Of a DNA stretch of 64,000 nt, positions 43,128-54,456 are shown piece by piece. Numbering within the stretch: position 1 is the stretch's first letter; each line of letters starts with the position of its first letter. Under the pieces are notes generated by a model. The model saw nothing but the letters and a program-made list of their open reading frames with translations. It did not search any database and was not told where the DNA came from. A program made the translations under genes and the position numbers. Location: the NCBI GenBank assembly GCA_021791195.1, contig JAJYXB010000024.1, positions 1 to 64,000 of the forward strand, in the 5' to 3' direction. The stretch comes from Actinomycetes bacterium. Its GTDB lineage: Bacteria > Actinomycetota > Thermoleophilia > BMS3ABIN01.

Positions 43128-43141
43128 CTCGTAAATTCGAA

Positions 43142-43192
43142 GGTGATGAAGCTCACCGCAACTGCGCCAGCCGGCGCTAATGGCTTCTTCAG
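43142..43192 (+). ncRNA. Fluoride riboswitch 1 (crcB motif)
   Basis: The aptamer shows GGTGATGAAGCTCACC (first stem and loop), the CAACTGCGCC strand that pairs in the pseudoknot, a GGCGC arm and the conserved CTAATGGCTTCT, in the order of the Thermotoga-type fluoride riboswitch. It lies about 75 nt before crcB, the family's best-known target. Binding of fluoride should let transcription continue past the terminator that shares its last arm. Confidence 0.93.
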
Positions 43193-43216
43193 GATATTCT
43201 GTTGAAGTTTTTTTTT
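43184..43216 (+). terminator. Riboswitch 1 expression-platform terminator
   Basis: CTTCTTCAG pairs with CTGTTGAAG (a two-base internal mismatch in the middle) across a six-base loop, followed by nine T. The left arm overlaps the aptamer's 3' conserved segment, so ligand binding and termination exclude each other. Confidence 0.8.
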
Positions 43217-43265: not shown

Positions 43266-43640
43266 ATGGAAAATATTCTTGTAATCGGAACCGGCGGCTT
43301 CTTTGGCGCCGCCAGCCGCTACGCAATCGCTTTCTGGATCGGTGAGCGCTGGGGCCGCAGCTTCCCCCTGGGAACGCTCGTGATTAACGTAAGCGGCAGC
43401 TTCCTGATCGGCCTGCTGATGTATCTGCTGAGCGAAAAGCTGCTGGTGAACCCGCTGTGGCGCTCGCTGCTGGTGATTGGTTTTCTGGGCGCCTACACTA
43501 CCTTTTCCACCTTTGAATATGAAACAGGTAATCTGCTTAACGACGGCGAACTACTCTACGCTGCCATCAACATCGTGGCCAGTGTTCTTTGCGGCCTGGT
43601 GGCGCTAAAGCTCGGCGAGCTGCTTGGCAGGATAATCTAG
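43266..43640 (+). CDS. crcB: Fluoride channel CrcB/FluC
   Basis: FluC exports fluoride as a dual-topology dimeric channel. The 124-residue protein has four membrane segments, with GTLVINVSGSFLIG (pore Asn and Ser region) and GFLGAYTTFSTF (fluoride-coordinating Thr/Ser and phenylalanines). ATG 43266 fits the family start (MENILVIGTGGFFGAASRYA); it has no strong ribosome site. It is under fluoride riboswitch 1 and eight bases before a DUF190 gene. Confidence 0.96.
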   Translation: MENILVIGTGGFFGAASRYAIAFWIGERWGRSFPLGTLVINVSGSFLIGLLMYLLSEKLLVNPLWRSLLVIGFLGAYTTFSTFEYETGNLLNDGELLYAAINIVASVLCGLVALKLGELLGRII

Positions 43641-43648
43641 GAGGCGCA

Positions 43649-43999
43649 TTGTTTACCGGACCGGCGAAGAAGCTGATAATTTATGTTGATGAGAAAGACA
43701 AGATTCATCATAAGCCGGTCTACGAAGCCGTGGTGGATATACTTTACCGCAACCACATCCTGGGCCTGAGCGTGTTCAGGGGCATCGGCGGCTACGGCTC
43801 CAACGGGGTGCTGCACACGACCAAGATTCTGGAGCTCTCCACCGACCTGCCGGTAAAGATCGAAGCCATCGACTCCGAAGCCAGGATCTTTGAAGTGCTG
43901 CCCGATATTGCCGAAATCGTGGAGAAGGGCATGATCGAAGTGTCTGATACAAATGTCATCAAGTGCTGCCGAAAAAAGGAGAATGCCGAAACGGGTTGA
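43649..43999 (+). CDS. DUF190 (PII-like) protein
   Basis: The 116-residue product shows KLIIYVDEKDKIHHKPVYEA, GLSVFRGIGGYGSNGVLHT and DLPVKIEAIDSEARI, typical of DUF190, a PII-like trimeric fold. It is often encoded beside crcB and probably regulates fluoride export; this is inferred. The TTG start at 43649 lies just after an AGGAGG site that overlaps the crcB stop, so the genes are coupled. Confidence 0.88.
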   Translation: MFTGPAKKLIIYVDEKDKIHHKPVYEAVVDILYRNHILGLSVFRGIGGYGSNGVLHTTKILELSTDLPVKIEAIDSEARIFEVLPDIAEIVEKGMIEVSDTNVIKCCRKKENAETG

Positions 44000-44070
44000 A
44001 TTCTTGCTGCAACCCCCTGCCGTGCCGGCATGTGGGGCTGAGTTTTACCAGGGCGCGGCATCGGGTATCA

Positions 44071-44076
44071 TATAAT
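44071..44076 (+). promoter_or_regulatory. -10 element for the second fluoride riboswitch transcript
   Basis: A perfect TATAAT, with a predicted start near 44083, seven bases before the second aptamer. It gives the dynamin-Ehr genes their own promoter. Confidence 0.55.
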
Positions 44077-44089
44077 CAAACAGTGGTAA

Positions 44090-44138
44090 GGCGATGAAGC
44101 TCGCCTAAACCGTCCCCGAGGACTAATGGCTTCTGCAG
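44090..44138 (+). ncRNA. Fluoride riboswitch 2 (crcB motif) upstream of the dynamin-Ehr operon
   Basis: GGCGATGAAGCTCGCC, then TAAACCGTCCCC, GAGGAC and TAATGGCTTCTGCAG follow the same order as riboswitch 1, with an even closer match to the Thermotoga aptamer. It is independent of riboswitch 1: it has its own -10 and its own terminator, and the next gene is a dynamin-like GTPase rather than crcB. Confidence 0.93.
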
Positions 44139-44164
44139 ACCAGAGATCTGTGGAGGCTTTTTTT
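44129..44164 (+). terminator. Riboswitch 2 terminator; also hides the ribosome site
   Basis: An 11-bp stem (44129-44139 with 44147-44157, some G-U pairs) and a seven-base loop, followed by seven T (44158-44164). The left arm overlaps the aptamer's conserved GGCTTCTGCAG. The right arm contains TGGAGG, the ribosome site of the dynamin gene, and the T-run abuts its ATG. Both transcription and translation should be off without fluoride. Confidence 0.9.
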
Positions 44165-45940
44165 ATGAAAAAACTCGAGACATACTCGACCAATCGGGAA
44201 GAGCTGGGGCAAATGCTGGCGAGGCTGGCCGACGTCGTGAGCACGGAAGAGTCCCGCCGGACGCTCGCAGAAATTGCCCACAATGTCAGCCAGAACCGTT
44301 TCACACTGATCGTTGCCGGGCAGTTCAAGCGGGGCAAGACCACATTCATCAACGCATTGCTGGGCAGCGATCTGCTACCGGTGGCAATCATCCCGGTCAC
44401 ATCGATTATCACCGTGATCGGATACGGCGATGAACTTGGAATTGAACTCTTCTTCCAGGACGGCGGCCGCCGGGAGATCAGCCAGGCGGAGCTGCCGCAC
44501 TTTATCACGGAAAAGCAAAATCCACAAAACCGGGAAAATGTTGACCGGGTTGAAATTCACTATCCTTCACCTTACCTGAAAAACCACGTCGAGCTGATTG
44601 ACACGCCGGGTGTGGCCTCGATCCATAGCCACAATACCGAGACCACATACGGTTATCTGCCAAAAGCAGACGCCGCCATCTTCCTGGTCAGCGTCGATCC
44701 ACCCCTGACAGCGGCAGAGCTTCATTTCCTCAACGACCTGCGCACCTACGCCAACCGCATTTTCTTCGTGCAAAACAAAATTGACACGGTCAGCGAAAGC
44801 GACCGTGTCGAATCGCTGGAATTCACCCGCCGCGCCATCGAAGAGAATCTGGGGCTTGAGAACTTCAAGATTTACCCACTTTCTGCCAGGAACGCGCTGG
44901 AGGGCAAACTGGCGGGGGATCTGGACGCGGTCGAGGACAGCGGCCTGCCGGCCTTCGAACGCATGCTGGAGGAATTCCTGCTGACGGAGAAAGGCAATGT
45001 CATCATCAGCTCGGCTGTCAACAAGACACGGAGCGTGATTGACCAGGAGGTTTTTTCTTTAAGTTTGACGCAGCGCGCCCTGAAGGAACCGTTGGCTGAA
45101 CTGGAAAAAAAGATAAGCCTGTTTGAAGAGGCCCGGCAGGAGATCGAGCTGGAGCGTTCAGACAGCGAGTCGCTGGTGGGGCAGGAAGCAAGGCGCCTGG
45201 TCGACCGGTTGCTGCTGCCAGACCTGGATGCGCTCAAGGAGGAGAAGACGCGCACACTGACCCTGGAGATAAACGCCCTGGCCCGGGATACAGCTGAACT
45301 GGGCAACCGGGAGTTCGCCGAGACGATCAATGAATATCTTCACGACCGCGTGCATGACATCTTTAATGAATGGCGCGTGGCCGAGCAGGACCGGATCGAA
45401 CAGGAGCTCGCCCGGATCATCAGGCGTCTTGTGGAGCGCACCAACCGCATTATCGAAAGACTGACGGCCGTCTCCTCGCAGATTTTTGGCGCCAGCCTGA
45501 GCGGCTTCAGCGTCAGTGAATCCCTCGAAGGCGCATCGTCGTTCAGCTTCAAGATCGATGAAGACGTCAAGGTGGCCCTGGAGAGTATCACGGAAGCCGC
45601 CACGCTGATCATGCCCCGGCGTCTGGCGCACCGCAGAATTTTGAGCGAGGCGCGCGAGCGCACCGCGAAACAGATCGACCGGCATTGCGGGCGGTTGCGC
45701 CATGACCTGACCGGACAGATACTCGAAACCGTCGAGGCATTTCGCAGGCGACTGGCGGCGGTCGTTGAAAACACAAGCAGCGGGATCGAGGAGGCGCTTG
45801 ACACCGGCCGGCGCGCCCAGGCAAAAAGCGCGGCGGAGCTAAGGGAGTTTGAGGAAGAGCTCAACAACCGGCTCGCCGTGCTCAACCAGGTCTCCGAGGA
45901 TCTCGCGCAGTTGCGCCACAACTTGTCTGACACCGCATAA
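44165..45940 (+). CDS. Dynamin-family GTPase under fluoride riboswitch control
   Basis: The 591-residue protein has a dynamin-type GTPase domain: G1 GQFKRGKT (52-59), switch Thr79, G3 DTPG (146-149) and G4 NKID (204-207). A long helical, Glu/Arg-rich region (from about 300) forms the stalk; no transmembrane helix is evident. Bacterial dynamin-like proteins reshape or protect membranes. ATG 44165 is right after the terminator T-run, with GGAGG eight bases upstream. The next gene of the membrane complex starts 34 bp downstream on the same strand. Confidence 0.9.
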   Translation: MKKLETYSTNREELGQMLARLADVVSTEESRRTLAEIAHNVSQNRFTLIVAGQFKRGKTTFINALLGSDLLPVAIIPVTSIITVIGYGDELGIELFFQDGGRREISQAELPHFITEKQNPQNRENVDRVEIHYPSPYLKNHVELIDTPGVASIHSHNTETTYGYLPKADAAIFLVSVDPPLTAAELHFLNDLRTYANRIFFVQNKIDTVSESDRVESLEFTRRAIEENLGLENFKIYPLSARNALEGKLAGDLDAVEDSGLPAFERMLEEFLLTEKGNVIISSAVNKTRSVIDQEVFSLSLTQRALKEPLAELEKKISLFEEARQEIELERSDSESLVGQEARRLVDRLLLPDLDALKEEKTRTLTLEINALARDTAELGNREFAETINEYLHDRVHDIFNEWRVAEQDRIEQELARIIRRLVERTNRIIERLTAVSSQIFGASLSGFSVSESLEGASSFSFKIDEDVKVALESITEAATLIMPRRLAHRRILSEARERTAKQIDRHCGRLRHDLTGQILETVEAFRRRLAAVVENTSSGIEEALDTGRRAQAKSAAELREFEEELNNRLAVLNQVSEDLAQLRHNLSDTA

Positions 45941-45974: not shown

Positions 45975-46925
45975 ATGGCAGATAAAATTGTGCTGAATCT
46001 GGCCCAGGTGCTATTTGTGATTGCCTTTTCTCCGCTCGCCGCGGGTGTGCTGGCACGGCTCAAGGAAGTGGTGCAGTCAAGGCGGGGGCCGGGCATTTTT
46101 CAGCCATACCGTGATTTATGGAAGCTCTTTCACAAAGACGAAATCGTCTCGGAGGAAAGCTCCTGGATCTTTCGCTTTGCTCCATATCTGATTTTTATCA
46201 TTCCCGTCTATGTGACGCTGCTGATCCCGGTGCTGACGAGTTTTCCGCTTTTTTTCGCCTTTATGGGCGATATGATCGGCGGCGGCTTTGCGCTGGCGCT
46301 GGGCGGTTTCTTCGCCACGCTGGCGGCGATTGACGCCGCCAATCCTTATGGCCCGATGGGCGCCAGCCGGACGCGGATGGTGGGATTTCTGGCCGAACCG
46401 GTTTTCATGATTGTGTTTTTCACCGTTTCGTTTGTCGCCGGCTCGACGATTCCATATATCGTCCAGCAACAATGGATAAACCCGGTGGCGAATTTTTTCA
46501 TGCCCGCCCACGTGCTGCTGCTGCTTGCCTTTCTCATGTTGATTCTGGCTGAGGGAGGCCGCCTCCCCGTGGATAATCCATCCGGCCATTTTGAACTGGC
46601 GATGATCGACGAATCCAAGTCGCTCGAATATTCGGGCCGTGGTTTGGCGCTGGTGAAATGGGGCGGCCATATGAAGCTGTTCGTCCTCATGTGCATCTAT
46701 CTCAATGTGCTGGTGGCCCCCTGGGGGCTGGCCGGAGAACAATCCTTCGGCGCTGTGCTGCTGGCAATCCCCCAGGTGCTTTTGAAGATTTTTGTCTTCC
46801 TGCTCGTGCTGGTGATCATTGAATCCTCGCTCGCCAAACTGCGGCTGTTTCGCATCTCGGAGTTCCTGGGCGCCGCATTTGTCATCTGTGTAGCGGCGAT
46901 GGTCTCGCAGATATTTCCGCTTTGA
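45975..46925 (+). CDS. Hydrogenase-4-type membrane subunit, HyfC/NuoH family
   Basis: This 316-residue, eight-helix protein is the quinone/ion-module anchor subunit (NuoH, HycD/HyfC): it has SRRGPGIFQPYRDLWKLF, AIDAANPYGPMGASRTRMV and the acidic loop ILAEGGRLPVDNPSGHFEL. It connects the soluble arm to the antiporter-like subunits. It starts 34 bp after the dynamin gene with AGGGAG upstream. The complex it belongs to lacks the Ni site (see the large subunit). Confidence 0.9.
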   Translation: MADKIVLNLAQVLFVIAFSPLAAGVLARLKEVVQSRRGPGIFQPYRDLWKLFHKDEIVSEESSWIFRFAPYLIFIIPVYVTLLIPVLTSFPLFFAFMGDMIGGGFALALGGFFATLAAIDAANPYGPMGASRTRMVGFLAEPVFMIVFFTVSFVAGSTIPYIVQQQWINPVANFFMPAHVLLLLAFLMLILAEGGRLPVDNPSGHFELAMIDESKSLEYSGRGLALVKWGGHMKLFVLMCIYLNVLVAPWGLAGEQSFGAVLLAIPQVLLKIFVFLLVLVIIESSLAKLRLFRISEFLGAAFVICVAAMVSQIFPL

Positions 46926-46937
46926 AAGGAAGATGAT

Positions 46938-47633
46938 GTGACAGATCAGCTCCTGGATAACCTGAATGCGCTGGTCACAGGATTGTTTTTGCTGACCGCT
47001 TTTGGCATCGTGGCGATGCGGCAGACGCGCGGCGTTTTTAACCTCTTTATCATCCAGTCCATTCTGCTGGCCCTGTCAGCCCTGATCCTGGGCCTGCGTC
47101 ACGGGTCAGAGGATCTTTACGGGGTGGCCCTGGTGAATATCATCATCAAGCCGCTGATCCTTCCCTGGCTGTTGCGTATTACAGTGCCGGAGGAGGTCTA
47201 TACGCGCCGGGAGGTCAGCCAGGCGCTGAATATCCCGACTTCCCTGCTCATCGCCTTGGCGCTGGCGATCCTGGCTTACTTCATCAGCCAGCCGCTGCTG
47301 AATGCGGTGGCGCCGGAATTTCAGGGTCCGAATGTGCCGATCGGCATCGCCGGCCTGCTGCTGGGGGCGTTTGCCATCACGGTGAGACGGGAGGCGATCC
47401 CGCTGCTTGTTGGCATCCTGGCGATGGAGAACGGCGCATTTTTGAGTGGCATTGCCATTTCTCGCGGCCTGCCACTACTGGTAGAGTTGGCCATCGCCAC
47501 TGATGGCCTGGTCGTTGTCTTTATCATGGGCGTGTTGACCCGCGCCGCAAAAAGGCATATCGGCACGACGGCTGTCGGCGAGCTGGCCCGCCTGAAAGAA
47601 ATGGCGCCGGCTGCCGGCGAGGGGGAAGAATGA
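46938..47633 (+). CDS. Hydrogenase-4 component E-like membrane subunit (HyfE)
   Basis: The 231-residue protein, with about seven hydrophobic segments, resembles HyfE: LFLLTAFGIVAMRQTRGVFNLF near the N-terminus and ENGAFLSGIAISRGLPLLVEL near the C-terminus (NuoK-like core). It starts at GTG 46938, 12 bp after HyfC, and overlaps the next gene by 4 bp. Confidence 0.88.
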   Translation: MTDQLLDNLNALVTGLFLLTAFGIVAMRQTRGVFNLFIIQSILLALSALILGLRHGSEDLYGVALVNIIIKPLILPWLLRITVPEEVYTRREVSQALNIPTSLLIALALAILAYFISQPLLNAVAPEFQGPNVPIGIAGLLLGAFAITVRREAIPLLVGILAMENGAFLSGIAISRGLPLLVELAIATDGLVVVFIMGVLTRAAKRHIGTTAVGELARLKEMAPAAGEGEE

Positions 47634-49153
47634 GCGTCGTTTTCATCCTGTTCCTGCCCCTGATTGCATCGGCGCTTATCCTGCTGCCGCTTCGGCAAGC
47701 CTGGGCGGGCATGATCACCCTTGCCTCTTCGCTGGCGGTGCTGTTTCTGGCCGCGCGGGTGGCGCTGCTGGTTTCTGCCGGCAACATAGTGACTTCCGTG
47801 CTCGGCATCGGCTTGCTGAAATGGATTTCTGTCGATGGCTTAAGCAGCCTGATATTGCTGCTGATCGCCTTTATCGGCGCCACCGCGGCCCTGTATTCTG
47901 TCGGTTACATGGCGCACGGAAGCTTCACGCCCCGCAAAATACGCATCTACTACATCAATTTCAACATGTTTGTCTTCTCCATGCTCGCCATTCCCATTCT
48001 CGCCGAGCCGACGCTTGTTTGGATCTCTGTAGCGCTGACAACGCTCACTTCAGCCCTGATTGTATCTTTTGATGATACGCGCGAAGCGCTGGAGGCGGCA
48101 TGGAAGTATGTTGTGCTCTCGCTTATGGGAGCCGGCGTGGCGCTGTTTGGATTCCTGCTGCTGTACTCGGCCCTGCAGGCTTCCGGCAGCGACGCCACGT
48201 TCTCCTGGAGCGGCCTGATCCAGGCTGCGCCCAGGATGCCCCCAGCCTTGCTGCAGGTTGCGTTCCTGCTGATCCTCATCGGCCTGGGAACCAAAGCCGG
48301 GCTCGTGCCGATGCACACCTGGCTGCCAGACGCCCACAGCCAGGCGCCTTCACCGGTGTGCGCCCTGCTTTCCGGGATTGAAACCTCGGCCATTCTTTAC
48401 GTGATCATGCGGCTGTTCCCGATCATGTCCGCTTCACCGGATGCCCACGCCGGCACCCTGGCGATCATTCTTGGCCTGGTCTCTGCCGGAACCGCGGCTT
48501 TCCTGCTGCTACAGGCCAGCGATTACAAGCGCATGTTTGCTTTTTCCACCGTGGAACACATGGGCATTATTCTGACCGCCATCGGACTGGGCGCCGCCGG
48601 CGCGAACTACGCTGCCCTGCAACAGGTCATCAGCCACAGTGTGACCAAGTCATTCTGTTTCTTTGCCGCCGGGATCGTGCTGATGAATCTGGGAACGCGG
48701 AAAATCACTTCGGTGCGAGGGCTGATTTCCAAATCTCCCTTTACCGGCGCCGCGCTTGTTTTTGGAGGCTTGGCAATCACCGGCGCGCCGCCGCTGGCGG
48801 TTTTTTTAAGTGAGTTCTCCATTCTGAAGGCGGGGCTGGCGCAGGCAGATTATCTGGCCATGGGACTCCTGTCATTTTTTATCCTGGTCGCCTTCTTTGG
48901 CATCATGATGAAAATCAACCAGATGGTGTTTGGCAAATCGGGAAATGAAACCGGGGGCGCCCTACCCCCGGTTTCCGGAACCGGGTCCGGGCAACAGCAG
49001 TCAGACAGTTGTGATGCCGGCAGGTTTCATCTGCCTGTCACCTGCCGGCTGGCGATGATACTGGCGGCCTTGCCTGTGCTGGTGCTTGGCCTCTATATTC
49101 CCCAACCGCTGCAGAACCTGCTAACGCAGGCAACTGCCGCCCTGACGAGATAA
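47630..49153 (+). CDS. Antiporter-like subunit, HyfF/NuoM-N family
   Basis: The 507-residue protein has about 14 hydrophobic segments and the proton-conducting-transporter motif: ALEAAWKYVVLSLMG, GLVPMHTWLPDAHSQAPSPV, and the key Lys in DYKRMFAFSTVEHMG. It should carry one proton or sodium path. The start overlaps HyfE by 4 bp; the HyfG-like gene follows after 8 bp. Confidence 0.92.
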   Translation: MSVVFILFLPLIASALILLPLRQAWAGMITLASSLAVLFLAARVALLVSAGNIVTSVLGIGLLKWISVDGLSSLILLLIAFIGATAALYSVGYMAHGSFTPRKIRIYYINFNMFVFSMLAIPILAEPTLVWISVALTTLTSALIVSFDDTREALEAAWKYVVLSLMGAGVALFGFLLLYSALQASGSDATFSWSGLIQAAPRMPPALLQVAFLLILIGLGTKAGLVPMHTWLPDAHSQAPSPVCALLSGIETSAILYVIMRLFPIMSASPDAHAGTLAIILGLVSAGTAAFLLLQASDYKRMFAFSTVEHMGIILTAIGLGAAGANYAALQQVISHSVTKSFCFFAAGIVLMNLGTRKITSVRGLISKSPFTGAALVFGGLAITGAPPLAVFLSEFSILKAGLAQADYLAMGLLSFFILVAFFGIMMKINQMVFGKSGNETGGALPPVSGTGSGQQQSDSCDAGRFHLPVTCRLAMILAALPVLVLGLYIPQPLQNLLTQATAALTR

Positions 49154-49161
49154 TCGCGATC

Positions 49162-50739
49162 ATGGCGCTCCTGCTGAAAGAACAAATTGATAAGCGGTGG
49201 CCGGACCAGGCAAAGTGCACCTGCACCGGCGGCCCTCACCTGTATGAAATCACTTGTGCCCGGGAGACGCTGGCGGAGCTCTGCGGCTGGCTTTTTATTG
49301 ATATGCGACTTAAATTTGCTACTCTTGTTGTCGAAGAGGCGTCCCGGGAGTGGCGACTGCGTTACATTTTTTATGGTGGCGCCGGCGCCGTGTGGGTGCA
49401 TGTTCTGGCCAGCTCGCCCTGCTCTGAGGAATCTTTTCCCAGTATTGTCGAATCTGTTCATGCTGCGGACTGGCACGAGCGCGAGGCCGAGGACATGTTT
49501 GGCCTGACATTCGCCGGCCATCCCCGCCTCGGTGATTTTATCCTGCACGATGACGCCTGGCAGGAAAACGTCCAGCCGATGCGGCATCATTTTGACCCGC
49601 AGATGGCTATCCGCTTCCGCAAACCCGCCGCTGACTGGCGGCCGCACCGCATCGTGCAGGAAGAGGGCGCGTTTGTCATGCCGGTGGGGCCGAAATTCTC
49701 CGGCGCCACCGAATCAGTTCATTTTCTGCTGGAAACCGTGGGCGAGGATGTCATCCGCTTTACCCCCCGCCTGTTTTATAAATGGCGAGCGATAGAGAAG
49801 CTGGCGGAAGCCAAACCCGCCGGGCGGGTCCTGCTGCTGGCAGAACGCTTTGCCGCGACAACCGCCTTCGCTCACGGACTGGCGTATTGCCAGGCTGTCG
49901 AGCGGATTTGCGGGGCAGAAGTCCCGCCGCGGGCGGCAGCCCTGCGTATTTTTCTGGCGGAACTCGAGCGGCTGCGGCAGCATGCCGGCGCGATTCAGGA
50001 AATCTGCGAATCCACGGCGCTGGTCGTTGCCGCCAGCGGGGCCGGGATCGTGGAAGAAGATTTGCTGCGCATCTCTGGTGAGCTCACCGGCCATCGCTAC
50101 CTGTTTGGCATGCTGGCGCCGGGAGGCTTGCTGGTCGACTTGCCAGACCTGGCCTGCCAGCGGGCGCTGCGAGGCTCACAACAAGTCCTGCGACAACTGG
50201 AAAAACTCGAAGCGCGGCTGCGTGTTTCCAGCAGTTTTCTCGACCGCCTCGAAGAGGTTGGCCTGGTGGCTCACCAGGTGGCGACTGCTTACGGCTTGCT
50301 GGGGCCGGTTGCGCGCGCCTCGGCAGACGCTCATGATCTGCGCCGCGAACATCCCTATTCAGGCTACGAGAAATTTCAGTTCGAGGTGCCCAGCGAGGAG
50401 GAAGGCGACGGTTACGCGCGGCTGCGGGTGCTGTTTGCCGAATGCCGGCAATCGGTGCGCATCATGGAGCAGGCGCTCGACACGGTCGCGGGCGGCAGCG
50501 TTTGCCGATCCTTCCCGTTTCGCGCGGGCGCCGCCCTGGGCTGGGCCGAAGCGCCGCGCGGCGCCACGTTTCATTGGGTGCGCCTCGATGATCAGGGGTA
50601 CATCGACCGCTACCATGTCACGGCGCCTTCGTTTGCAAACTGGCACGGGTTCCATGCCGCCGTCGAAAATTTTGCCTTTCAGGATTTTCCCATCATGCTC
50701 GCATCCTTCGACCTTTCCGTATCCGAGGCCGACAGATGA
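49162..50739 (+). CDS. Ehr-type large subunit (HyfG/NuoCD-like) lacking all Ni-binding cysteines
   Basis: The 525-residue protein joins a NuoC-like part (to about 145, with ADWHEREAEDMFGLTFAGHP) to a hydrogenase/NuoD-like part (about 170-525). The N-terminal Ni motif ERxCGxC reads ERFAATTAFAHG, with Ala231 and Thr234 in the Cys positions, and the C-terminal motif DPCxxC reads DLSVSE, with Ser519 and Glu522. All four ligands are gone, so it cannot be a NiFe hydrogenase. It matches the energy-converting hydrogenase-related (Ehr) complexes. The redox partner, if any, is unknown. Confidence 0.85.
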   Translation: MALLLKEQIDKRWPDQAKCTCTGGPHLYEITCARETLAELCGWLFIDMRLKFATLVVEEASREWRLRYIFYGGAGAVWVHVLASSPCSEESFPSIVESVHAADWHEREAEDMFGLTFAGHPRLGDFILHDDAWQENVQPMRHHFDPQMAIRFRKPAADWRPHRIVQEEGAFVMPVGPKFSGATESVHFLLETVGEDVIRFTPRLFYKWRAIEKLAEAKPAGRVLLLAERFAATTAFAHGLAYCQAVERICGAEVPPRAAALRIFLAELERLRQHAGAIQEICESTALVVAASGAGIVEEDLLRISGELTGHRYLFGMLAPGGLLVDLPDLACQRALRGSQQVLRQLEKLEARLRVSSSFLDRLEEVGLVAHQVATAYGLLGPVARASADAHDLRREHPYSGYEKFQFEVPSEEEGDGYARLRVLFAECRQSVRIMEQALDTVAGGSVCRSFPFRAGAALGWAEAPRGATFHWVRLDDQGYIDRYHVTAPSFANWHGFHAAVENFAFQDFPIMLASFDLSVSEADR

Positions 50740-50767
50740 ATACAATCGCTAAACGGGCTTGGATCAT

Positions 50768-51523
50768 ATGAGCCACTGGGTCTTCAATGGCATCCGGACG
50801 GGCATAAAAACCTCCGCCTATCCCCGCCGCCCCGAGACCGCCGCCGGCGTCACCCCGGGGCTGCCCCGGGGGAGAAAGCTCGATGCCGGGGAAGCAAAAG
50901 CACTGATGGATACCTGCCCGGCAGAGGTATTCCGCCTGGAAGATGGCAGGGTGCTGGCGGACGTCCGCCGCTGCATCCACTGCTATCGCTGCATGCGCAT
51001 CGCCCCGCATCCGGCGCTCTGGGAGCAGTCTTATGAATGGGCGCTTCAGCCAGGCCGGGAAACCGGATTCGTTTCTGCTTTTAAAAAATCGATCAACATC
51101 TGTGTCGTGGATGCCGGTGATTGCGGCTCGTGCCTGAACGAAGTCAGACAGTTGAACAACCCGTATTACAACATCCACAGGCTGGGATTTTTTATCACCC
51201 CCACGCCTCGTCATGCGGATGTATTGCTGGTGGTGGGTCCGGTGACGGATCACATGAGCCTGGCGCTGCAAAAAGTCTATAACGCCATGCCCACCCCGAA
51301 ACTGGTGGTGGCTGTTGGCGTCTGCGCCCTTAGCGGCGGTGTATTTGCTGAAAGCTTTGCCTGCGCCGGCGGTGTGACAGACGTGCTGCCGATTGATGTG
51401 GAGGTGCCGGGCAACCCGCCGCCGCCGCTGGCGATCATTCACGGCCTCCTGGTGGCGACGGGGCGCAAGGCGCCGGTTGACATGCCGGCCACACCCTACC
51501 AATCCGGTGGGTCCGGCCCATGA
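50768..51523 (+). CDS. Ehr small subunit: ferredoxin half fused to NuoB-like domain
   Basis: This 251-residue protein has an N-terminal iron-sulfur segment (Cys50-Pro plus CIHCYRC, Cys69/72/75, enough for one [4Fe-4S] cluster), then a NuoB/HyfI-like domain with DCGSC (Cys119/122), VGVCALSGG (Cys186) and EVPGNPPPP. The last motif is normally PGCPP; Asn216 replaces the fourth ligand of the proximal cluster. ATG 50768 is used; a TTG at 50759 is possible. The next gene overlaps by 4 bp. Confidence 0.82.
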   Translation: MSHWVFNGIRTGIKTSAYPRRPETAAGVTPGLPRGRKLDAGEAKALMDTCPAEVFRLEDGRVLADVRRCIHCYRCMRIAPHPALWEQSYEWALQPGRETGFVSAFKKSINICVVDAGDCGSCLNEVRQLNNPYYNIHRLGFFITPTPRHADVLLVVGPVTDHMSLALQKVYNAMPTPKLVVAVGVCALSGGVFAESFACAGGVTDVLPIDVEVPGNPPPPLAIIHGLLVATGRKAPVDMPATPYQSGGSGP

Positions 51524-53694
51524 TGGCAACGTCGGCGGCACGGGTGTTCATCGTCATCACCGGTTTCTTCGCCCTCTGCGGCGCTGGCGTTCTGCTTTCT
51601 TTGATTGCGCCGCGCCAGCGGCAGGGCAGCGTGCTCGCCGTAGCCGGTTGCCTGGCGGCAGCGGCGCTGATCCTGGCAGGTAGCGCCACACTCATCCTGG
51701 GCGAAAATTTCAGGCAGCCGCTATGGTCGCTGCCCAACCTTGGGACGATGACAATCAGCCTCGACCAGCTTTCAGCGGTATTCCTGCTGGTTACGGGACT
51801 GGTGCTGTTTCCGGCATCAATTTTTGCCGGCTCCCAGCTGAAGCGGCGGTCGAGCCCCACGGGCCGCGTGTTTACGGTGCTGCTGCTGGCGCTCTATGCC
51901 GCCATCGGCCTGATCTTTATTTCCGGTGACGCCTTTTTGTTCCTGCTGGCGTGGGAAGCAATGTCCATTTTTTCCTACCTGCTCATTGTCTTTTTCCGCA
52001 AGCAAAACAATGACGCATCCGGTGCCGGTTATCTTTTTCTGGCCATGGGCGAGGCGGGCACACTGGCTGCTGTGCTGGGGTTTCTCTTGCTCGGCGTAAA
52101 CGCCGGCTCGCTTGATTTCGCTGCCATCCATGCCGCCGCGCCGGGATTTGGCCCAGGTGTCAGGTGGGCGGTTTTTTTGCTCTCGTTTTTCGGATTCGGC
52201 GTCAAGGCCGGGCTGGCGCCAGTGAATTTCTGGCTGCCGCGCGCCTATGCTGCCGCATCACGGGCATTTGTGCCAGTACTGGCGGGCGCCACCCTGAACC
52301 TGGGCCTTTACGGACTTCTGCGAGTGAATGCCGGCCTGATGCCCGCGACCGGCTCAGGGCCAGGTCTGATCGCGCTTATTGCCGGCACGATAACAGCCCT
52401 GGTCGGCATTCTCTATGCCACGACAGAGAATGATCTTAAAGTCATTCTGGCGCACAGCTCGATTGAAAACGTTGGCATCGTCGTCACCGGCTTTGGCGCC
52501 GGCATGATATTCGTGGGGACGGACCATCCGGTGCCGGCGGCGATTGCCTTTGTGGCCGCACTTTATCACCTGGTCAATCATTCACTCTTCAAGACCCTGC
52601 TGTTTATCGGCGCTGGCGAAGTGGAAAGCCAGACCGGCACCCGTGACCTGAACAAACTCGGGGGATTGATCAAGTGGATGCCAATGGCCTCGCTGGCCTT
52701 CCTGGTCGGCACGCTCTCAATCTCGGCTCTGCCGCCACTGAACGGCTTCGTCAGTGAATGGCTGATACTGCAGACCATGCTGCGCTCGGCAGAGTTATCC
52801 TCCGCGGGCGTGAAGCTGGCTTTCTCCCTGGCCGGCGCCGGCCTGGCGCTGACGGCGGCGCTGGCAGTCACCTGTTTTGTCAAAGTGTTTGCCATGGGCT
52901 TTCTGGGGATGCGGCGCCGTGATGAAAATCCGCGGGTTGTTGAGGCTAAATCCGGCACGCTGGTGCCGATGTTTTTGCTAGGGGCACTCTGCCTCGGATT
53001 AGGGCTGCTGCCTACATATGTGATCCCGGCGCTTGGTCCGGCCGTCCGGCCACTGGCAGGAGCGAGCGCGACCGATGCCCTGGTGCCGCCTTTCTTCACC
53101 TCCAGCCCGGCACACAACACCTTGCCTCCTGCTTTTGTCCAGGACTTTCAAGGCCTGGGCGCCCAGGTGGGGCAAAACCTGCTGCCGGGCCGGGGCCTGG
53201 TGGTGCTGCACCGGGGCGGCGCGGAAAACCCTGTGATCTTCGCCATGTCTCCCTTTTACATGGCAATCATCCTGGTCATCCTGCTGCTCGCGACATATGT
53301 TGTCATCCGCATCTGGCTGACACGCGGGCGCAGTCTGGCCAGGCGCAAACGCTGGGACGGCGGCGTGCGGCGGCTGCTGCCGGAAATGACCTACACGGCG
53401 ACCGGCTTTTCCAATCCGGTGCGGGTGATCTTTGATGCCGTATTCAGGCCAACGGCCGTGGAGGACACCAGCGAGTCGGTAACCAGGCATTTCCGTACCG
53501 CTATCCGGCGCGAGCGAGAGCGCACCTACCTGGTCGACCGGCTGGTTTTCTATCCCGTCAGGGCGGTGCTGATGCGGATTGCGCGCACCCTGGCCCGTCT
53601 GCACCAGGGCCGGCTTAACACTTATGCCGCATATGTGCTGGCTGCTTTGCTGCTGATGCTCCTCGGGTTCCTGGTGTTCCAGTCATCGTGGTGA
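51520..53694 (+). CDS. Antiporter-like subunit with long C-terminus, HyfB/NuoL family
   Basis: The 724-residue protein has about 16 hydrophobic segments. The proton-conducting core includes LLAWEAMSIFSYLLIVFFRK, FGFGVKAGLAPVNFWLPRAY and NDLKVILAHSSIENVGI. The C-terminal part has a soluble segment (RKRWDGGVRRLLPEMTYTATG) and a last helix, as in HyfB. It is the last intact gene of the run; the enolase remnant begins six bases later. Confidence 0.92.
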   Translation: MMATSAARVFIVITGFFALCGAGVLLSLIAPRQRQGSVLAVAGCLAAAALILAGSATLILGENFRQPLWSLPNLGTMTISLDQLSAVFLLVTGLVLFPASIFAGSQLKRRSSPTGRVFTVLLLALYAAIGLIFISGDAFLFLLAWEAMSIFSYLLIVFFRKQNNDASGAGYLFLAMGEAGTLAAVLGFLLLGVNAGSLDFAAIHAAAPGFGPGVRWAVFLLSFFGFGVKAGLAPVNFWLPRAYAAASRAFVPVLAGATLNLGLYGLLRVNAGLMPATGSGPGLIALIAGTITALVGILYATTENDLKVILAHSSIENVGIVVTGFGAGMIFVGTDHPVPAAIAFVAALYHLVNHSLFKTLLFIGAGEVESQTGTRDLNKLGGLIKWMPMASLAFLVGTLSISALPPLNGFVSEWLILQTMLRSAELSSAGVKLAFSLAGAGLALTAALAVTCFVKVFAMGFLGMRRRDENPRVVEAKSGTLVPMFLLGALCLGLGLLPTYVIPALGPAVRPLAGASATDALVPPFFTSSPAHNTLPPAFVQDFQGLGAQVGQNLLPGRGLVVLHRGGAENPVIFAMSPFYMAIILVILLLATYVVIRIWLTRGRSLARRKRWDGGVRRLLPEMTYTATGFSNPVRVIFDAVFRPTAVEDTSESVTRHFRTAIRRERERTYLVDRLVFYPVRAVLMRIARTLARLHQGRLNTYAAYVLAALLLMLLGFLVFQSSW

Positions 53695-53700
53695 TCATTT

Positions 53701-54350
53701 ATGCCCTTTTGCAAAATGTCCGCGGGTATTTTTTATAAAGTGTTGACTCCAGGGGCAATCCCACAATCATGGCGGAGATTCGGCTCGATTCGGGAGCCTC
53801 CGGCGTGGCCATGGTGCCTTCGGGTGCCTCTACGGGAAAGCGGGAAGCACTCGAGCTTCGAGACTCCGAAGACCGGAGGTTCGGCGGCAAGGGAGTCAGA
53901 ACGGCGATTGAGAATATTGAGAATATCATCAAACCTGAGCTGGTTGGACAGCGCGTTTTCCATCAGCTCGAAATTGATCTGTGAACCGGGAGAAGACGTA
54001 TCCATCGCTCTCGACCCGGCAGCCAGCGAATTTTACCAGAACGGCACGTATGTTTTTGATCGTGAAGACAGAACCAGCGGGGAGATGATTGATTATTATG
54101 ACTACCTGGTTCGCTCCTATCCAATTATTTCGATCGAAGATGGTCTGGCTGAAAATGATTGGGAAGGATGGCGGCAGCTGACGGAAAGGCTGGGTGGAAA
54201 AATCGAGCTGGTCGGAGACGATATTTTCGTCACCTATGCCGCGATTTTCCGTAAAGGCATAAAGGAAGGCATCACCAACGCCATCCTGATCAAACCTAAC
54301 CAGATCGGCCCGCTCCGAAAGGGTCTCCAAATACAACCGGCTGATGTGGA
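53701..54350 (+). pseudogene. eno: Decayed enolase gene at the end of the fluoride operon
   Basis: Two enolase pieces are legible in different frames. The N-terminal piece reads [29 protein letters not shown] and LGKGV-like [13 protein letters not shown], up to a stop at 53982-53984. A one-base loss at about 53746 (GTGTTG then ACTCC where GACTCC is expected) throws its beginning out of frame. The second piece starts [17 protein letters not shown], continues [14 protein letters not shown] and LVGDDIFVT, and ends after ILIKPNQIG. About 160 codons between the two are gone, and so is the C-terminal quarter with the catalytic Lys and SHRSGE. It cannot make an active enzyme. Confidence 0.9.
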
Positions 54351-54456
54351 TTGAGAAACTGCTGACATAGACTGCCGGGGTCTTTTTGATCCACAGCCGG
54401 GTGTTGATTTATGTTCCAATACGTCAGAGATGTAAAATATCAGGTAGGGTGTATTT

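Follow-up and report, generated by a model that had tools for sequence, protein, structure and literature searches.

The hydrogenase-like operon in the window (the whole stretch of 64,000 nucleotides that was analysed) is part of a fluoride island. Judged by its subunits and motifs, the encoded complex is an Ehr complex, a relative of complex I and of the group-4 hydrogenases without the Ni-Fe site. The Ehr kind itself is already known; its fluoride-wired variant is new. As best explanation, held with somewhat more confidence than doubt, we propose a fluoride-induced Ehr complex that translocates H+ and/or Na+ and thereby restores pH and proton-motive force. The broader proposal is that this Ehr clade is dedicated to fluoride tolerance, having lost the Ni-Fe site and in some members the proximal cluster too, and having been recast as a fluoride-induced H+/Na+-translocating complex; here we consider the chances evenly balanced.

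All features of the island lie on the + strand. The first fluoride riboswitch aptamer (RF01734) was located at 43133..43196 (Rfam 39.6 bits, gathering threshold 34), with a terminator-like hairpin (43182-43209) overlapping its 3′ end. It lies 5′ of crcB/fluc, which encodes the CrcB/Fluc fluoride channel (43266..43640; Pfam PF02537, E=1.8e-28), followed by a gene for a DUF190 protein, a frequent CrcB partner (43649..43999; PF02641, E=8.6e-31). The second RF01734 aptamer (44081..44142; 45.4 bits) heads the dynamin-Ehr operon and is preceded by a promoter-like site (44044-44071). Its 3′ part is overlapped by an intrinsic terminator hairpin (44128..44158), consisting of a 12-bp stem followed by T7 (-15.6 kcal/mol, z=-3.1), as is usual for a transcription-ON expression platform; by the known riboswitch mechanism, fluoride binding would switch transcription on. 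Both copies of RF01734 in the 2.15-Mb genome fall within the window. The aptamer and overlapping terminator upstream of the operon place it in the fluoride-riboswitch regulon, and the riboswitch supplies a physiological context that was absent from the initial annotation.

The dynamin-like GTPase is encoded at 44165..45940 (PF00350, E=3e-26), with GGAGG immediately 5′ of the ATG at 44165. An alternative start at 44126 was rejected, as it falls within aptamer 2. The spacing between the dynamin stop and the first Ehr gene is 34 nt. At the end of the island lies a broken enolase remnant (53769..54354; Pfam Enolase_C, E=5e-35, C-terminal part), with a broken frame and the middle missing. An enolase coding sequence was observed at or near the position of this remnant in loci L001, L003, and L030. 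Dynamin-like GTPases were also seen next to or immediately downstream of fluoride riboswitches in other genomes, at five of 30 sampled riboswitch loci (L097, L102, L107, L108, L112) and in a fluoride island of B. cenocepacia (L084); in the literature searched, no paper joining fluoride riboswitch and dynamin was found.

The HyfG/NuoCD-like large subunit (49162..50739; 525 aa) was aligned to E. coli HycE/HyfG. Where the latter carry RVCGICGFAH and DPCYSCTDR, the window sequence reads RFAATTAFAH and DLSVSEADR, confirming that the four Ni cysteines are replaced by Ala231, Thr234, Ser519, and Glu522, as had been proposed in the initial annotation. The C-terminal tail measures 0 aa versus 32 aa in HycE/HyfG, so that the protein ends where the processed enzyme does, and the operon has no gene for a [NiFe]-hydrogenase endopeptidase (HycI-type). 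Some true group-4 enzymes likewise lack a C-terminal tail. The quinone-site His and Tyr of the 49-kDa subunit of complex I are also missing, GPQHPSTHG and RxDY of NuoD corresponding to GPKFSGATE and RFAA. Structures were predicted using AlphaFold2 with locus-derived alignments, each subunit being folded singly. In both models most of the fold was predicted confidently. For the large subunit the mean pLDDT was 82, residues 160-205 and the C-terminus being poorly predicted. The best Foldseek match was FHL HycE (7z0s_E, TM 0.89); complex I CD was also matched.

Genes labelled 'formate hydrogen lyase' were listed in 2010 as lying downstream of the crcB motif (PMC2864571), and a 2024 review takes the fluoride-linked 'formate hydrogen lyase' as a metabolic shift (PMC11139923); the label has been understood as pointing to fermentation. 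The 2010 report and the fact that HycE is the best solved structural match would fit a working formate hydrogenlyase or hydrogenase, supporting fermentation when enolase is blocked. Such an enzyme is hardly credible, given that all four Ni ligands are missing in every ortholog, that the operon encodes no formate dehydrogenase, HycI protease, or HycH, and that there is no tail to cleave. H2 chemistry at a Ni-Fe site is refuted by the absent ligands. Missing Ni maturation as the cause of their loss was ruled out, since HypD is encoded elsewhere in the genome. Because there is no Ni-Fe site for hydrogenase chemistry, the label 'formate hydrogen lyase' is, by the motifs read here, wrong for this clade. 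In the open-access literature searched, no paper was found to remark that the fluoride-linked complex lacks its Ni ligands.

A scan of 84,980 species yielded 33 orthologs with 46-79% identity. These carried labels (MAGs and genomes) of Nitrospirae, Verrucomicrobia, Planctomycetes, Proteobacteria, Acidobacteria, Spirochaetes, and others; L034 (28% identity) proved to be an ordinary NuoD. Orthologs with intact Ni cysteines were looked for and none was found (0/33), while E522 and D524 did not vary at all and S519 hardly varied. All six frames are open, as noted earlier, and pairwise dN/dS values of 0.08-0.24 indicate purifying selection. The view that the complex is not a hydrogenase thus holds, and degeneration of the window copy is rejected because the orthologs lack the Ni cysteines as well and dN/dS is low. 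A decaying pseudo-complex carried in a mobile fluoride island might be read from the broken enolase adjoining the operon, the patchy distribution, and the variability of residue 216 of the small subunit. With six open frames under such selection, and with gene order and motifs retained in loci assigned to many phyla, decay is very improbable. Conservation of the substitutions differed between the subunits: absence of the Ni cysteines extends to 33/33 orthologs, but Asn216 of the small subunit occurs in only part of the clade.

The small subunit (50768..51523) consists of a one-cluster ferredoxin part (HyfH/NuoI-like) fused to a NuoB/HyfI-like domain. Its start at ATG 50768 is backed by 32 orthologs, so the numbering of Asn216 is right; from the upstream TTG at 50759 this Asn would be residue 219. 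Loss of one proximal-cluster ligand was verified, Asn216 standing in PGxPP with the other three cysteines (C119, C122, C186; CGSC and GVC) kept. C119 and C186 are invariant in 32/32 window-clade sequences, as are C50, C69, C72, and C75 of the ferredoxin part, which is therefore real. By motif order, we take its cluster to be the NuoI cluster that adjoins N2 in the Thermus complex I structure. A B. multivorans relative carries the full two-cluster ferredoxin set fused to the same domain. The AlphaFold2 model (mean pLDDT 83) gave structural matches to HycG, MbhJ, and PSST.

Among 33 scored window-clade members, the fourth proximal ligand is Asn in 15, His in three, Gln in one, Gly in one, and Cys in 13; Asn is confined to part of the clade and distant members have Cys. 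Over the whole tree, about six changes between Cys and non-Cys were counted at this position. Residue 216 was compared with residue 232 of the large subunit, which with few exceptions is Ala alongside Asn, His, or Gln and Gly alongside Cys; this apparent covariation is suggestive but not independent of phylogeny. All four proximal-cluster cysteines have been lost, with the fused ferredoxin kept, in M. branderi (L049 7435-8229), Allomeiothermus (L047 7272-8144), and L069, the small subunits of which apparently belong to complex I-like machines without N2. The earlier suggestion that electrons still enter therefore stands in part: the ferredoxin cluster is invariant, but onward transfer is not fixed, some sister-clade relatives lacking all four proximal ligands. 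Repeated loss of these ligands raises the question whether complex I-like machines can run without the last electron-transfer step.

A tree built without the ligand columns supported the window clade (35 rows) at 100/100, a sister clade (7 rows) at 99/97, and both together at 94/93, some deep branches being long. The joint clade excludes hydrogenase-3/4, the Ni-cysteine-bearing L070 and L072, the Ehr of rhizobia and Azospirillum, and a second Ehr in the genome of the window itself (G000:C24:31023-38179; L055, L036, L074). The latter has no Ni ligands, retains only one of the four proximal-cluster ligands (STNAC, GDDA, PGDP), and is not riboswitch-linked.

Upstream sequence was available for 31 window-clade loci (window included), and 29 of these have the riboswitch at the Rfam cut-off. 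In the other two (L017, L033) it was detected by our own model trained without them. For the riboswitch alignment, the known two-stem structure (R2) took the place of a wrong RNAalifold structure (R1). A genome search found the riboswitch in two further window-clade genomes. In the sister clade it was present at eight of nine loci (Burkholderia, Caballeronia, M. branderi, G087, G098, G109, and G119 among the carriers), the ninth (L077) showing a weak match only, at the expected place. For both clades combined, the riboswitch lies upstream of the operon in 41/42 relatives, versus 0/14 control loci (E. coli hyf, hyc, and nuo; true FHL; other Ehr; NuoD), giving a Fisher p=2.6e-12 that ignores relatedness. 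Between aptamer and first gene the median spacing is 175 nt, with 25/30 cases below 600 nt; CrcB, DUF190, or dynamin sit inside several of the longer gaps. The pattern recurred in a second sample, 396 genomes from the same phylum, where the riboswitch and the Ehr lie at coinciding positions in 8/9 fluoride-clade cases and 0/8 others, G058 being assigned to the fluoride sister clade according to the tree. The genes that accompany the operon in the relatives belong to the fluoride regulon (pyrophosphatase, UspA, enolase, CrcB, DUF190, MutS), and the riboswitch-linked complex is spread over bacteria of many phyla. L081 and L084 are dense fluoride islands: genome G098 has seven riboswitch matches, which lie mostly on its contig C39 (L081), and a B. 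cenocepacia plasmid (L084) has six within 15 kb.

Four genes encode the membrane arm. The first Ehr gene specifies a HyfC/NuoH-like subunit (45975..46925; PF00146) and is followed by those for a HyfE-like subunit (46938..47633; NCBIfam hydrogenase 4 membrane subunit, below the curated cut-off) and a HyfF-like antiporter subunit (47630..49153). A HyfB/NuoL-like antiporter subunit (51520..53694; NCBIfam hydrogenase 4 subunit B, 506 bits, curated cut-off 667) is encoded behind the small subunit. Proton-channel residues are mostly retained, the HyfB-like subunit keeping TM5 Glu146 and TM7 Lys229. The statement that the membrane subunits keep key charged residues accordingly applies to most channel residues, but the TM5 glutamate of HyfF is Ala136 in the window and its nearest relative L001, Thr in L028/L029, and present in others. 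All aligned window-clade members have a clade-specific glutamate in TM8 of HyfF, E251 (SGxET/LES), at a position that is Leu (Ser in HyfD) in group-4 relatives, B. multivorans, and M. branderi. Loss of the glutamate at 136 and gain of Glu251 may possibly represent a moved ion-pair partner. The subunit set points to the ion-translocating architecture of complex I/Ehr type that had been predicted. A second HyfB-like antiporter subunit was observed in tandem behind the operon in L003 (13558-15735), L030 (6015-8177), and L013 (13438-14628).

In the mechanism that we favour, the fluoride-bound riboswitch would block the overlapping terminator, so that the genes for the dynamin-like GTPase and the six Ehr subunits are transcribed. 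Inward diffusion of HF and efflux of F- via Fluc, which is encoded immediately 5′ under its own fluoride riboswitch, would together amount to a net proton leak. By moving H+ and/or Na+, the membrane arm (NuoH, HyfE, HyfF, HyfB) would restore cytoplasmic pH and proton-motive force. According to a published review, fluoride export needs proton-motive force, the cytoplasm is acidified by entering HF, and, after exporters, Na+/H+ antiporters form the next-most-common class of riboswitch genes (PMC11139923). In the window clade, the ferredoxin cluster and the modified proximal cluster (3 Cys + Asn) probably take electrons from a cytoplasmic ferredoxin-like donor, the invariant ferredoxin cysteines speaking for electron input. 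The former Ni-Fe cavity would be a redox-inert or differently used site and H2 therefore not the product. The loss of the HyfF TM5 glutamate in the window copy counts against this explanation.

Complete loss of the proximal cluster in some sister-clade members makes the redox input uncertain. M. branderi, in which riboswitch control was kept, speaks against redox chemistry as the sole driving force of the pump across the family. Absence of the quinone His/Tyr alongside the Ni ligands, together with loss of the proximal cluster among relatives, points to a modified or redox-free cycle. The same observations (neither Ni nor quinone ligands present; M. branderi and L069 without all four proximal-cluster ligands), together with the frequency of Na+/H+ antiporters among fluoride-riboswitch genes (PMC11139923), would suit a redox-free Mrp-like Na+/H+ antiporter acting under fluoride stress, its cytoplasmic arm serving as structural or regulatory cap and its ferredoxin cluster being structural or a redox sensor. 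This reading is possible but doubtful: the ferredoxin cysteines, C119, and C186, invariant in 32/32, are hard to explain without a working cluster. A direct F-/HF pump driven by reduced ferredoxin would agree with the tight fluoride-riboswitch control and with a patchy occurrence within a genus (3/6 species searched). It is unlikely, as a CrcB exporter with its own riboswitch is already present beside the complex and every subunit resembles cation/H+ machinery; moreover, we know of no anion path in the complex I/group-4 superfamily. The fluoride-induced, H+- and/or Na+-moving Ehr complex remains our preferred explanation; at least in this clade the complex is not a hydrogenase, and a part in maintaining ion balance under fluoride stress is the likelier role.

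Ehr complexes without CxxC are known in Nitrospira, ammonia-oxidising archaea, and Sulfobacillus (PMC10284858, PMC10432482, PMC4378227); these papers and PMC6349859 give their function as unknown. To a kind of complex reported for years without known function, the fluoride riboswitch gives, in this clade, a testable job. If true, an Ehr complex would for the first time have a physiological role, and 'formate hydrogen lyase' would give way to it in the fluoride regulon.

Compared with known Ehr, the window complex shares the group-4 large subunit without CxxC and the Mrp/complex I-like membrane subunits; its group-4-like subunit set, its lack of Ni ligands, its antiporter-like subunits, and its grouping with Ni-free sequences in the tree are those of an Ehr. 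It differs in its fluoride riboswitch, the gene order C-E-F-G-I-B, the ferredoxin fused to the small subunit, and HyfF E251, whereas the unfused Ehr loci examined outside both clades, including the second one of its own genome, have no riboswitch and a different gene order. E. coli hyc/hyf (FHL/hydrogenase-4) has the same six core subunits and the highest structural similarity (7z0s). Unlike hyc/hyf, the window complex is without Ni cysteines (0/4 of those in the two CxxC motifs of group-4 [NiFe]-hydrogenases), formate dehydrogenase, HycI-type tail and protease, HyfD, and separate HyfH, and has a fluoride riboswitch instead; its operon comprises C-E-F-G-I-B and dynamin only, with neither formate dehydrogenase nor a HycB-type partner. 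Complex I shares the 30-kDa/49-kDa fusion (as NuoCD), the NuoB-like, NuoH-like, and antiporter-like subunits, and, in NuoD, a large subunit ending in ...DR without tail. In contrast to complex I, the operon encodes no NADH module, NuoA, or NuoJ (complex I is encoded at another place in the genome), the quinone-site His/Tyr are absent, and one proximal-cluster ligand is replaced. The NuoB/C/D-like arm sets the complex apart from Mrp antiporters (MrpA-G), which have no such arm. Finally, the system described here shares with the fluoride-riboswitch regulon (crcB RNA, RF01734; E. cloacae FRM operon, PMC5533749) the same RNA and crcB, eno, ppa, uspA, and mutS, and adds to it the complex previously labelled 'formate hydrogen lyase' and a dynamin-like GTPase.
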